From a virus, in the IMG/VR virus record IMGVR_UViG_3300045970_000794, positions 188,001 through 252,000 of that record: a DNA stretch of 64,000 nucleotides. The stretch is one strand, 5' to 3'. Positions 51,365 to 55,859 of this stretch are shown here, piece by piece. The translations under genes and the position numbers were made by a program. The notes beneath the pieces were generated by a model. That model worked only from the letters and a program-made list of their open reading frames with translations. It did no database searches and was not told the DNA's origin. Positions within the stretch are counted from its first letter, which is position 1; each line of letters begins with the position of its first letter.

Positions 51365-51790
51365 TTATTTATCTCCCCCGACTAAAAGTACGAAGGTATA
51401 CGTACCATTACAATCACCATCGGCAAACCATTCTTTAGTTTTACCAGTTGTTATTGCATAAATAGTTTTATAACCTTTTTTAGCTTTCAACGTGGTATTT
51501 GACCAACCATCTAACACACCTTTAGAAACACCATCAACATAAACTTCAACCATATATCCTGTGTTGTTAGCAATTTCAATTGAGCATTCTTTAGAACCAC
51601 GTGTTCTTTGTTGGTCCAAAGCTGGGTCTTCTAATGGATTGTCATCATTAGTTGTTATCGCTGTTTTAATCATTGGATTATTCCAAGCTTCACGAACAAC
51701 ATTTTTTGATTTAACTTCCACTTTCAATTCTTGTGCGAATGAACTTCCAACGAAGGTCATAATTGCAATTAATAATAATAATTTTTTCAT
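51365..51790 (-). CDS. Secreted protein with Sec signal peptide
   Basis: The 141-residue protein begins MKKLLLLIAIMTFVGSSFAQ, a clear N-terminal signal peptide with a likely cut after SFA. The mature part is small and beta-rich (LKVEVKSKNVV, CSIEIANNTGYMVEVYVDGV, YTFVLLVGGDK), with two Cys. Export to the periplasm or host surface is inferred; a role in superinfection exclusion or lysis control is only a guess. It is directly downstream of the former gp23 end at 51893, from which it is separated by a terminator. Confidence 0.75.
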   Translation of the reverse strand: MKKLLLLIAIMTFVGSSFAQELKVEVKSKNVVREAWNNPMIKTAITTNDDNPLEDPALDQQRTRGSKECSIEIANNTGYMVEVYVDGVSKGVLDGWSNTTLKAKKGYKTIYAITTGKTKEWFADGDCNGTYTFVLLVGGDK

Positions 51791-51845
51791 TTTTAATTTG
51801 TTTTTATATTAATAAAATAACTAATGAAAAGGTAACCACAAAAAA

Positions 51846-51871
51846 AAAGCCCTACATTACTGTAAGGCTTT
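51846..51871 (-). terminator. Terminator of the displaced gp23 end
   Basis: A stem of 11 positions with one mismatch (AAAGCCcTACA / TGTAaGGCTTT) and a 4-nt loop lies 22 nt after the stop codon of the gp23 remnant. It parallels the terminator after the intact gp23 at 54023-54048. Confidence 0.7.
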
Positions 51872-51892
51872 TCTTTATTTATCTAGAAGAGA

Positions 51893-51961
51893 TTATCTCA
51901 ATTCATTGATGTTGAATGTAGGAACACCATCTACTCTTACATGCCCGTAAAACCTGTTGTT
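51893..51961 (-). pseudogene. Remnant 3' end of gp23 (22 codons plus stop)
   Basis: Read on the minus strand, this segment encodes NNRFYGHVRVDGVPTFNINELR in two pieces of the same frame, followed by TAA. That is identical to the last 22 residues of gp23 at 54072-55859. The nucleotides differ at several codons, all synonymously. It has no start of its own and breaks off at 51961. It is followed by its own terminator, so it looks like the original end of the capsid gene, left behind by an insertion. Confidence 0.85.
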
Positions 51962-51964
51962 AAA

Positions 51965-51996
51965 TTTGCATTTTTAAAATAATTTTAGTATCTTTG
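51965..51996 (+). promoter_or_regulatory. Host-type (Bacteroidetes) promoter
   Basis: TTTG at 51965-51968, 20 nt, then TATCTTTG at 51989-51996, with the ATG at 52002. Strong match to the Bacteroidetes consensus. Confidence 0.75.
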
Positions 51997-52001
51997 TATT
52001 T

Positions 52002-53318
52002 ATGAAAAAATTAACAAATGAAGCGTTTTTTAAAGGAATAGAAAAAGAACATGGGGATAAATATGATTATTCTAAACTTGAGTATATAAATATGAGTACT
52101 AAAGTAACTATCATATGTCCAATACATGGCGAATTTAAGCAAAGACCACATAATCATGTAGAAGGTAAAGGGTGTCCTAAATGTGGATTTGATAGAACAA
52201 GAAATAGTAAAGTTAAAACAACTAATAAATTTATTGCACAAGCCAATGAAATTCACAATAATAAATATGATTATTCTAAAACCAATTATACAACTGGTAT
52301 TATAAAAGTAATTATTATATGTCCAATACACGGTGAATTTAAACAAGACCCATATAACCACCTACAAGGTAAGGGGTGCCCTAAATGTGGTAAAGTTTAT
52401 AAACCAACAACAGAAGAGTTCATTCAAAAAGTTAGGGGAGTTCATGGAGATAAATATGATTATTCTTTATTTAAATATGTTACCAGTTCAACAGCAAGTG
52501 AAATAATATGTCCAATACATGGAAAATTTAAACAAACACCACAAAACCACCTTAAAGGGAAAGGCTGTTTTAAATGTGGTAAAGCTTATGCTAGTAGGTA
52601 AAGAAGATATAAATTAGATGATGTTATTATTAAATTAAAAAATAAAGGGTTTTATGATGAATCATATAAATATGAAGAAATTTTATTTATAGATGGTGGG
52701 TCGAAAATGTTAATTACTAATAAATATACTAATACAAAACATATTACACCAGTACACAATATATTAAGACGAAAAACTAATTGTTGTTTTGATAATGCTA
52801 TTAATAAACAAGAATACCTTATTAGTATGAGTAATATTGTTCATGATAATAAATATAATTATTCTAAAGTTAATTATAAATCAGCTATATTTAAAATTAT
52901 AATTACATGTCCTACGCATGGTGATTTTAAACAAACTTTTAATTCACATTTAAGAGGTTCTGGGTGTCCTAGATGTTCTGATAGTAAAGGTGAGAAAAAA
53001 ATAAGAAAATTACTAAAGAGTAATGATATTATATTTATCCATCAATATAAATTTAATAATTGTAAGAATGTAAGACCTTTACCTTTTGATTTTTATTTAC
53101 CAGATTATAACGTGTGTATTGAATATAATGGAAAACAACATTATGAACCGATTAAACATTTTGGTGGTAAAAAACAATTAATTTATATACAAAAAAATGA
53201 TAAAATTAAACAAGAATTTTGTGAAAAAGAAGGTATTAAATTAATCACTGTAAAATATAATGAAGATATTGAAGAACGATTAACCGAAGAGTTAAAGAAT
53301 TTGAGTTCCTTTACTTAA
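52002..53318 (+). pseudogene. Interrupted zinc-ribbon repeat / VSR-like homing endonuclease
   Basis: One frame runs from ATG 52002 to 53318 but is broken by TAA at 52599-52601; the codons after it stay in frame, with the next ATG at 52707. The first 199 residues hold three KYDYS...ICPIHGxF...H..GKGC.KCG repeats. The 203-residue second part adds a further repeat and the nuclease core PFDFYLPDYNVCIEYNGKQHY, split around D and E as in VSR-like/EDxHD endonucleases. The partial gene at 1-791 has the same design. It is flanked by the gp23 remnant and an HNH gene. It is either a decaying gene or two peptides that work together. Confidence 0.8.
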
Positions 53319-53975
53319 ATTGTCCTCACCCCATAATGGTTGAAGATTATCCAAACGCCAACACTCCTTAAACTCTAGGTCATCAGTACTTTCAAACATA
53401 AAACTATTCATCGGTTTTTTATGGTCTACATGCCACTCACCATAATTATCCCACGTCATTCCATCGGTAAATAAGTTCTCTAAATGAATCATCAATTCTT
53501 CGATACTATAACCTAATAATGCAAATGTTTTATTCGTCTTATTAACATTACGTTCTTTAAGCATTTGCCATACCGCTGTGCGTGTTCTAACACCTAAACG
53601 ATACTTTGGGTCCTCAGCACGTCTTTTACGCTCATAATCACGCTTATATTTGTTTACATGTTCTTTATTTTCATCTCTCCAACTTGAGTGATACTTTCGC
53701 AATTCTTTTCTATTTTCGTTAGACCATTCTTTATGGTATTCGCTAAGGTCTTCTTTATTTTTTTCATAATAACGTTTAGCGGCAGCTGGTTTCCCACCTA
53801 TAAATCGTTTACCAGAAGGTCCAAACACAACACCGTTTTCTTTAAGTGTTCTAATTATTATCGTTTTATGTATACCCATTCGTTCACTAATAGTCGTAGA
53901 CCCAAGTAATTTATCATTATACATTTTCAAACACTCTTGTGTTTGCTCTGGTGTTAATTCTATTTTTTTACTCAT
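53292..53975 (-). CDS. HNH homing endonuclease
   Basis: The 227-residue protein starts at the ATG at 53975 (MSKKIELTPEQTQ). An N-terminal helix-turn-helix (TTISERMGIHKTIIIRTLKE) and a basic helical linker are followed by the HNH core FTDGMTWDNYGEWHVDHKKP and NLQPLWGEDNLSKG. It resembles the HNH gene at 6032-6760. It lies directly downstream of gp23 on the same strand, converging with the zinc-ribbon gene by 27 nt. The host-type promoter at 53979-54009 controls it. This pair is likely what displaced the gp23 end. Confidence 0.88.
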   Translation of the reverse strand: MSKKIELTPEQTQECLKMYNDKLLGSTTISERMGIHKTIIIRTLKENGVVFGPSGKRFIGGKPAAAKRYYEKNKEDLSEYHKEWSNENRKELRKYHSSWRDENKEHVNKYKRDYERKRRAEDPKYRLGVRTRTAVWQMLKERNVNKTNKTFALLGYSIEELMIHLENLFTDGMTWDNYGEWHVDHKKPMNSFMFESTDDLEFKECWRLDNLQPLWGEDNLSKGTQIL

Positions 53976-53978
53976 ATA

Positions 53979-54009
53979 CAAAGATACTAATAATAGTTTA
54001 TAAAGTCAA
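53979..54009 (-). promoter_or_regulatory. Host-type (Bacteroidetes) promoter
   Basis: On the minus strand TTG (54007-54009), 20 nt, then TATCTTTG (53979-53986), 3 nt before the ATG at 53975. Confidence 0.75.
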
Positions 54010-54022
54010 GTAATATTAACAA

Positions 54023-54048
54023 AAAAGGTGGAGATAAATCCACCTTTT
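54023..54048 (-). terminator. Intrinsic terminator after gp23
   Basis: Perfect 10-bp stem AAAAGGTGGA / TCCACCTTTT with a 6-nt loop, and a T-run on the minus strand, 24 nt past the gp23 stop codon. Confidence 0.85.
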
Positions 54049-54071
54049 AAGTTTTATATTATCAAGAGTGA

Positions 54072-55859
54072 TTATCTCAACTCATTAATATTGAATGTAG
54101 GTACACCATCAACTCTTACGTGACCATAGAAACGGTTGTTCACAACTTTCTTAGCGTAACGTGTCATTATACCCTTAACAGGGGCAAAGTTGAATGGGTT
54201 GTACATTGTTGGAGTAAGTTGCAAAGGCACGTATGGTGCGTAGATGTAACCAGTATCCAATAATGATTTACCTTTATGACCGATAATCATTGAGTAGTAA
54301 GGAGCATAAGGGTCACGATACACTTGGTAACGTCCACTTAATGAACCAATTCTTTCAATACCCATGTTGTATTGGTCTTGTTCTGGACTTGCGTCAGAAA
54401 CGTGGAAATATTCTAAATCGTCAAATATAGCACTGATTTCAGAAGATACAACGATGAAGTTAGCACCACCTCTAAGTGTAGATTTATGGATTTGTGCTGA
54501 AATTTGGTTAACTTTAGTTAATAAAGTTTGATTCCAGTCTTTTTGAGTGTAAGGACTTGCAGCTGTAGAAGCTTTTCTCCAACCTTGGTAATCCCATCTC
54601 ATTTGCCATGCAGCAGCTTTACGTAAATCACGAAGGATTTCACGGTCAATTTCAGCAGCTACTTGTTCAGACAACATAGCAGTCAATTCAGCTTCAGCAT
54701 CGATGTTGTGGAATGCACTAACGTCTTGAGCCAATTCTGGTGACCATGTTGCACGTAATTTTCTTTCTTCAACAGATACAACAACTTCGTCAAGTTTGAA
54801 AGAAATTTCAGCAAGTTCAGTTTCTAATTCAAGAGTTGCATAAGTTGCATATGATACTGTAAATGCAGTTGCACCAGTTGCAGCATAAGTACTAGAACTT
54901 ACAGCTCCAACATAACCATCATATGTAGATGTACCGTTAGATGATACTGGGTGACTTAAATCAAGGTCTAAATACATAATACCTTCAGCGTCACAAATAT
55001 CAGTATATTCAACAATACCTTTACCGTATTTTTGAGTTACAATTCTAAATGGAACTTCAGCATTTTGTGCAATGATTACTTTACCATCTGGGTCAGTAAT
55101 TGCAGCGTTTGCACTAACAATTTTAAGACCAGCTAAGAAGCTTTCAGTATCCATTGGATGTCCATCAGGTCCGTTTAATCTACCAGCACCACTACCAGTG
55201 AAACCAGTTACTTTAAGGATTACGTTTCTGATTGAACCATCAACTGCGTAAGTTGGGGTTGTTGCATTAGCCCAAACACCATTAGCATTTAATGTAACAG
55301 GTTGAGTCAATGTCATTGCATTGATAGTTATTGTACCTTTTGAGTTGTCAAATAAACCATCATTGTAATATAAATCGTAAAGTGATTTACTTCTGAAAGT
55401 TGTTTCTAAACAACCATCAATAACACAACTTGGAAGTTGTCCAACAGCCATACCAGTGTGAGCTGAATATGTTGCACCGTCAATCCATGGGTCACCATAA
55501 GTTCCAGTTGAATTATTTGTTCTGTAAGAAGTTTGTGGTACGAAGAAGAACAATTTACCAATTGGCATGTTCAACGCTTGTACAGACACGATATCGTTAG
55601 CTAAAAGCTTAGAGAATACTCTTCTTACGATAGGGAATACTACTGTTTCGAAAGAACCAGAAGAATCCGCTGTAGTGTTTTCGGTTAATAAAGTACTAGC
55701 TTGGTTTTCATAAAGCTGAGCAATATTTTCCTTAACGTGGCCTTTAAGACCTTCTAAGAATCCAAGAGATTCCCATTTTTCTTGAGTCATTTTACGGATA
55801 ACTTTCATGTGGTTTAATCCAATGTTACCTACTTGACCTGATGTTAATAAATGTCCCAT
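54072..55859 (-). CDS. gp23: Major capsid protein (T4 gp23-like)
   Basis: Forms the hexamers of the capsid. The 595-residue protein starts MGHLLTSGQVGNIGLNHMKV, with ALNMPIGKLFFFVPQTSY and SKLLANDIVSVQ in the N domain, matching gp23. A likely gp21 cleavage site is LLTE at residues 57-60, which would remove the N-terminal peptide. The C-terminal part AKKVVNNRFYGHVRVDGV is family-typical. It is longer than T4 gp23, with an insertion-like segment around residues 290-350 (TAFTVSYATYATLE). The gene follows the scaffold gene in a late operon. Its 3' end is duplicated at 51893-51961. Confidence 0.93.
   Translation of the reverse strand: MGHLLTSGQVGNIGLNHMKVIRKMTQEKWESLGFLEGLKGHVKENIAQLYENQASTLLTENTTADSSGSFETVVFPIVRRVFSKLLANDIVSVQALNMPIGKLFFFVPQTSYRTNNSTGTYGDPWIDGATYSAHTGMAVGQLPSCVIDGCLETTFRSKSLYDLYYNDGLFDNSKGTITINAMTLTQPVTLNANGVWANATTPTYAVDGSIRNVILKVTGFTGSGAGRLNGPDGHPMDTESFLAGLKIVSANAAITDPDGKVIIAQNAEVPFRIVTQKYGKGIVEYTDICDAEGIMYLDLDLSHPVSSNGTSTYDGYVGAVSSSTYAATGATAFTVSYATYATLELETELAEISFKLDEVVVSVEERKLRATWSPELAQDVSAFHNIDAEAELTAMLSEQVAAEIDREILRDLRKAAAWQMRWDYQGWRKASTAASPYTQKDWNQTLLTKVNQISAQIHKSTLRGGANFIVVSSEISAIFDDLEYFHVSDASPEQDQYNMGIERIGSLSGRYQVYRDPYAPYYSMIIGHKGKSLLDTGYIYAPYVPLQLTPTMYNPFNFAPVKGIMTRYAKKVVNNRFYGHVRVDGVPTFNINELR

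Follow-up and report, generated by a model that had tools for sequence, protein, structure and literature searches.

A gp23-associated HNH endonuclease gene and displaced ends of the major capsid gene in giant T4-like phages

The sequence analyzed here, referred to in the following as the window, is a 64,000-nucleotide stretch (positions 188,001 to 252,000) of the 362,102-bp IMG/VR virus record IMGVR_UViG_3300045970_000794, from a phage called giant T4-like. It carries the end of the gene for gp23, the major capsid protein, twice: once on the intact gene and once as a remnant farther downstream, with a gene for an HNH endonuclease in between. We consider it likely that this HNH protein serves as a free-standing homing endonuclease with gp23 as its dedicated target; it would cut the gene near its 3' end, spread by co-conversion of that end, and leave the native end stranded where downstream homology is missing.

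Two gp23 ends and a common breakpoint

The intact gp23 gene (54072–55859, minus strand) encodes 595 residues and matches Pfam PF07068 (Gp23) at E=1.4e-70. A preliminary description of the window had claimed that the minus-strand segment 51893–51961 encodes the last 22 residues and the stop codon of gp23 with several synonymous codon differences, and that each copy is directly followed by its own terminator, all of which was confirmed. The translation of the segment, NNRFYGHVRVDGVPTFNINELR followed by a stop, is the same as the C-terminal 22 residues of gp23, and a DNA profile of gp23 tails detects this remnant at E=2e-15. When it is compared with the functional end of the gene (copy 1, 54072–54140, minus), 58 of 69 nucleotides match and 10 of 22 codons differ, every difference being synonymous; at codons -20 to -16 (RFYGH) all five differ. 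The hairpin–T-run terminators lie at 54020–54050 behind copy 1 and at 51840–51872 behind the remnant, both on the minus strand; they fold at -17.9 and -20.0 kcal/mol and differ in sequence. Copy 1 would be the replacement end, whereas the remnant would be the native end, starting at the cut site and followed by the native gp23 terminator. Between the two copies, the HNH gene (53292–53975 from its ATG, minus, the gp23 strand) and a zinc-ribbon/VSR-type endonuclease gene (52002–53318, plus) are convergent.

To look for similar remnants in relatives, a profile of gp23 tails with no presupposed start was run over the downstream regions of 124 distinct loci. Four long remnants were found: those of the window (WIN), L014 and L092, all starting at gp23 codon -22, and that of L099, starting at codon -21. 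A pattern scan that presupposed the start gave two more, L168 and L172, and all six begin at codon -22 or -21, with the position built into the search for the last two. Chance was taken to account for short remnant-like matches that had E>0.1 or lay on the minus strand, and a second pattern scan mostly picked up intact gp23 genes in which Leu precedes NN rather than remnants. The remnants of WIN, L014 and L092 have identical protein with 9–13 codons different. In L092, L099, L168 and L172, the cargo reading frame ends in a TAA formed at or beside the junction. L168 and L172 are weaker evidence, since the L172 contig (187 kb) has no recognizable complete gp23 by its remnant (L172:1276–1344; G001:71200–71268) and the L168 gp23 (L168:10700–12409) misses about 37 residues (517–553) in frame, due to either an assembly error or a real deletion. 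The shared breakpoint may point, indirectly, to site-specific cleavage of an allele without the HNH gene.

Comparison with gp23 loci of relatives that lack the insertion, a check proposed in the preliminary description, produced an empty counterpart (L010) to the occupied locus L099. Identity between the two is 99.92% in the 3,872 bp that run up to the gp23 end and 99.84% in the 3,658 bp downstream. L099, which has the HNH gene, is longer than L010, which lacks it, by 1,142 bp plus 69 bp in which the gp23 end is repeated. The L099 remnant and all sequence behind it correspond to the L010 gp23 end and its neighbours, and the final codons and post-stop sequence of L099 copy 1 are close to L013; judged from these alignments, the native origin of the remnant in L099 appears clear. 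As a separate observation, the terminator loop reads CATTAG or CTAATG when the L010 post-stop sequence is set against the L099 remnant, an apparent inversion of a hairpin loop between near-identical phages.

The HNH family and its co-inheritance with the gp23 3' end

Searching IMG/VR with the window HNH protein yielded 80 loci, and the homologues in the sets based on the HNH protein and on gp23 all lie just 3' of the gp23 stop, on the same strand. When the search was repeated with a diverged family member and once more with gp23, 95 HNH genes were adjacent to gp23 and 0 lay elsewhere. The gap between the gp23 stop and the HNH gene is 63–141 bp (median 96) in the retrieved members, and the lowest identity in the gp23-adjacent set examined is about 45%. 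More distant HNH genes (30–44% identity) are found elsewhere in the window's genome and in known phages; dedication to gp23 thus holds for the family and not for all its cousins. In the window's genome (G000), such distant genes are scattered, for example at C1:180442, 194266 and 75236.

An alignment of 29 homologues showed a conserved HVDH...N...N motif with invariant D186-H187, N212 and N221. The protein matches PHROG 1035 (endonuclease VII, E=2e-13) and has no Pfam match; no CxxC pairs occur among the invariant columns of the 29 homologues, so the family departs from the Endo VII motif of the DHHRN/F-CphI kind, in which CxxC flanks DHDH. The predicted structure (mean predicted local distance difference test score, pLDDT, 83.7) has an N-terminal helix–turn–helix (HTH) and a C-terminal small strand–helix unit. 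A fold search gave matches to HTH-type DNA-binding domains only, none at E≤0.001, and the N-terminus is predicted to resemble HTH repressor domains. The gene has further properties of a free-standing homing endonuclease gene (HEG): beside its nuclease-family motif, it is intergenic next to an intact gp23, outside any intron or intein, and is present or absent at the same site in close relatives (L010 and L099). In L003 and L004, sequence like that upstream of the L099 HNH gene occupies 0–130 bp past the gp23 stop with no HNH gene, a possible scar of loss.

To compare loci with (HNH+) and without (HNH-) the gene, two clades were treated separately: clade A, of FTPIKGIM type, with 40 HNH+ and 22 HNH- loci in the first set, and clade B, which includes the window. 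In clade A, synonymous differentiation between the two states was F=0.101 in the last ~50 codons and F=0.011 in the gene body. Permutations gave 0/2000 for the last 50 codons and 12/2000 for the body; they leave relatedness in, and the gene body serves as the control. The strongest columns lie around codons -27 to -15. In a replication with 86 new clade A loci (53 and 33), F fell steadily from the 3' end: 0.103, 0.067, 0.035, 0.023, 0.018 and 0.010. The clade A HNH state changes 10 times on a tree of the body and 4 times on a tree of the 3' end. The proposed comparison of the two phylogenies thus came out as HNH state following the 3' end in clade A and weakly so in clade B, and flank co-conversion is seen as a population signal in clade A rather than in a cross.

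The region from the terminator to the HNH start was then compared in 52 distinct HNH+ loci with profiles of 918 gp23 windows of 21 nt, on both strands. The top three windows were in the sense direction at codons -22, -23 and -21, which is the remnant breakpoint. The threshold z>1.64 was passed by 62% of the 52 HNH+ regions, compared to 2% of 55 HNH- regions. Examples of the motif are ATAAATAATAGATTTTATGGTCAT (L096) and GTAAACAATCAATTTTATGGTTGT (L126), and in L008, L096, L126 and L059 it resembles the target site at 14–15 of 20 nt. A per-locus test with the best 20-mer gave 7 site matches, against 0–7 in shuffles; it was the pooled comparison of profiles that proved decisive. The presence of a degenerate target copy in the HNH promoter region of many relatives suggests that HNH may repress its own gene, acting, by analogy, as an I-TevI-like autorepressor with an operator that resembles its homing site.

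A proposed mechanism and its alternatives

One place in gp23 is singled out by three lines of evidence: where the remnants break, where codon differentiation peaks, and which gp23 site the promoter-region motif resembles. It is most simply explained by a homing enzyme that opens the gene at this place and carries a rewritten 3' end along as it spreads. The target would be the NNRFYG-coding sequence AAYAAY/MGNTTYTAYGG, 22 codons before the gp23 stop, with AAYAAYMGNTTYTAYGG as the predicted cut site in an HNH-free gp23. In a mixed infection, HNH would break the HNH-free gene at this target, and repair from the HNH+ genome would copy in the donor 3' end, synonymous and presumably uncuttable, along with the terminator and the HNH gene. 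Because the replacement end is synonymous, the capsid protein would stay intact. Where the genomes share downstream sequence, repair would be clean, and in many occupied clade A loci homology with empty relatives does resume 10–20 bp past the HNH gene, as expected if downstream homology permits such repair. Where they share none, the incoming DNA would be joined to the broken end, stranding the native gp23 end from the cut site onward; in WIN, L092 and L099, homology is regained at -65 to -70, where the cut is presumed.

For the window, we favor the second outcome. Its HNH gene, post-stop sequence and last 22 codons of copy 1 have the same nearest relatives, L084 and L088; the post-stop sequence, including the terminator, is common to these two HNH+ phages, and the last 22 codons are nearest to L088. 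A sliding nearest-neighbour analysis of the window gp23 gave no stable donor, the gene being a mosaic, and the small gene at 51365–51790 (minus), the presumed original downstream neighbour of gp23, matched no family and, when queried to locate the empty site of the window genome, turned up no relative in IMG/VR. With a mosaic gp23 body and a neighbour that lacks relatives, the direction of events in this genome is one that we infer, and its copies are assigned as native or foreign by analogy with L099 and L010. The question raised in the preliminary description, which copy groups with which relatives, has this answer for copy 1. Its central proposal, an insertion that brought a diverged replacement end and stranded the old one, is well supported by relatives, namely by L010 and L099, the six remnants and the 3'-confined differentiation, while phylogeny leaves the native copy of the window unproven. 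(The N-terminus of the small gene, MKKLLLLIAIMTFVGSSFAQ, looks like a signal peptide.)

Several observations weigh against the homing model. No remnant was found in 93 further distinct loci, all six remnants belong to phages outside clade A, and L014, L168 and L172 have no HNH gene of the gp23-dedicated family in their available sequence. In clade B, the co-inheritance has the same direction and is weak (F=0.021; 13 state changes on the body tree versus 11 on the 3'-end tree), and a clear motif was not seen upstream of HNH in the window or its nearest relatives L084, L088 and L024. In L099 copy 1, a stretch of about 40 nt on the downstream side of the presumed cut is the same as in L010, which calls for a donor identical in that part or for two recipient genomes. 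L010 itself might be either the empty ancestor or a precise excision product of L099 through recombination between the copies, and the distribution of their few base differences fits excision slightly better; on both readings, the element would have been gained or lost recently at exactly this place. Finally, the T4 HNH homing enzymes MobA and MobE nick rather than cut (PMC2988022).

An improbable alternative, though the best of those considered, is that gp23 ends at a hot spot for recurrent illegitimate insertion or duplication, to which ordinary phage recombination brings cargo genes, with HNH one passenger among many and without a role in the process. It draws on L014 and L168, where a single cargo gene and no endonuclease lies between duplicated gp23 ends, and on the gp23 downstream region, which varies widely among relatives. 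The preliminary description had regarded a two-copy arrangement in other contexts as a reason to abandon its proposal; these two loci are such an arrangement, and the core idea is still supported. A hot spot, however, does not predict a single breakpoint codon, a copy of that site in the HNH promoter region, or codon differentiation that depends on HNH and is confined to the 3' end.

Somewhat less probable still is that the VSR-type gene encoded the enzyme that cut gp23 in the window genome, with HNH already resident or brought along. The VSR-type gene directly abuts the window remnant, and VSR-like genes lie downstream of gp23 in L035, L036 and L038. Against this, the breakpoint is shared by L092 and L099, which carry HNH but lack a VSR-type gene, and it is HNH genes that have the target-like motif in front of them. 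In addition, an in-frame TAA at 52599–52601 interrupts the VSR-type gene, to which about ten genes elsewhere in the same genome are related. The preliminary description had seen the two genes between the copies, which was correct apart from the broken frame, and had taken them as a pair that invaded together, which did not hold up: HNH alone is the constant gp23 neighbour, and a VSR-type gene beside this HNH family was seen in the window only. The VSR-type gene has the look of an independent passenger, now broken, that came later or hitchhiked.

Least probable is a simple tandem duplication, in which two gp23 ends first drifted apart synonymously and endonucleases inserted between them later, since, for all that the post-stop sequences of both L014 copies are nearly identical, an untranslated remnant should decay rather than keep its protein as in WIN, L014 and L092, the two terminators differ in WIN, L092 and L099, and the ~99.9% identity of the L099 flanks to L010 leaves no time for drift.

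Returning to the homing model, we tentatively suggest, at somewhat less than even odds, that the element works as a homing drive with a recoded rescue, in which the synonymous 3' end would give immunity and limit loss by recombination, a decoy target would provide self-regulation, and cargo would be mobilized between jumbo phages.

Two further features of the region were noted. Both genes between the copies have putative promoters read from the sequence, TTGAC...TATCTTTG for HNH (53979–54009, minus) and TTG...TATCTTTG for the VSR-type gene (51966–51996, plus, abutting the remnant), which we take to be of Bacteroidetes type. Many unrelated small genes downstream of gp23 (43 of 366 open reading frames, ORFs) start with an MKxLIKKLLRE-like peptide, for example at L014 +71, L092 +787, L024 +1299 and in the L168 cargo ORF, with none in the window. 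The LxE in these peptides resembles the T4 gp21 protease site, and they may be capsid-targeting sequences of internal head proteins.

Comparison with known systems

If correct, the proposed pathway is a way in which an essential gene can be invaded by a free-standing endonuclease and still stay whole. Target choice, donor immunity and cargo transfer become directly testable on natural material: sister phages with and without the element, scars at the presumed cut site, and a predicted operator. Since gp23 is a standard marker gene for T4-like phages, the finding that its 3' end travels apart from the rest in these phages also calls for caution. The literature searched, with most subscription journals outside it, gave no account of gene ends left stranded by phage HEGs: by the terms searched, a T4 HEG review (PMC2988022) describes no stranded gene ends, and a survey of phage HEGs at exchange boundaries (PMC10448857) mentions neither remnants nor gp23 nor recoding.

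The Seg and Mob enzymes of T4 resemble HNH in being encoded between genes and, on the proposed model, in homing without an intron through repair that co-converts a neighbouring gene; the sites reported for them are hundreds to thousands of bp away from their own genes (PMC2988022), whereas the presumed site here is ~160 bp away. F-CphI, encoded beside psbA in cyanophage S-PM2, is likewise free-standing, cuts the neighbouring gene in relatives and has a protected donor allele (PMC6083498). The protection comes from an intron for F-CphI and would come from codon spelling here, and F-CphI has a DHHRN Endo VII motif (PMC6083498), in contrast to the HNH-like motif without CxxC pairs of the present family. 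I-TevI of T4 is an autorepressor whose operator, over a late promoter, is like its homing site at 15 of 20 nt (PMC2988022), comparable to the 14–15 of 20 in the four loci above. However, I-TevI is an intron-encoded GIY-YIG enzyme with proven binding, while autorepression by HNH is predicted from the motif, which is not clear in the window's clade.

Mobile ORFs have been described in fungal mitochondria, in atp6 of Allomyces macrogynus and in atp6, atp9, cox2 and nad3 of Glomus (PMC3630166). There, too, the inserted endonuclease gene comes with a C-terminal part that is foreign and has diverged synonymously, and the native C-terminus is left stranded downstream (PMC3630166). The window has this architecture, an in-phase C-terminus and a second one behind the endonuclease, with native and foreign assigned by analogy. 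The fungal enzymes are LAGLIDADG or GIY-YIG proteins of mitochondria, whereas here an HNH gene with its own terminator and putative promoter sits beside a phage capsid gene, and the breakpoint shared across several insertions is a feature of the present system.

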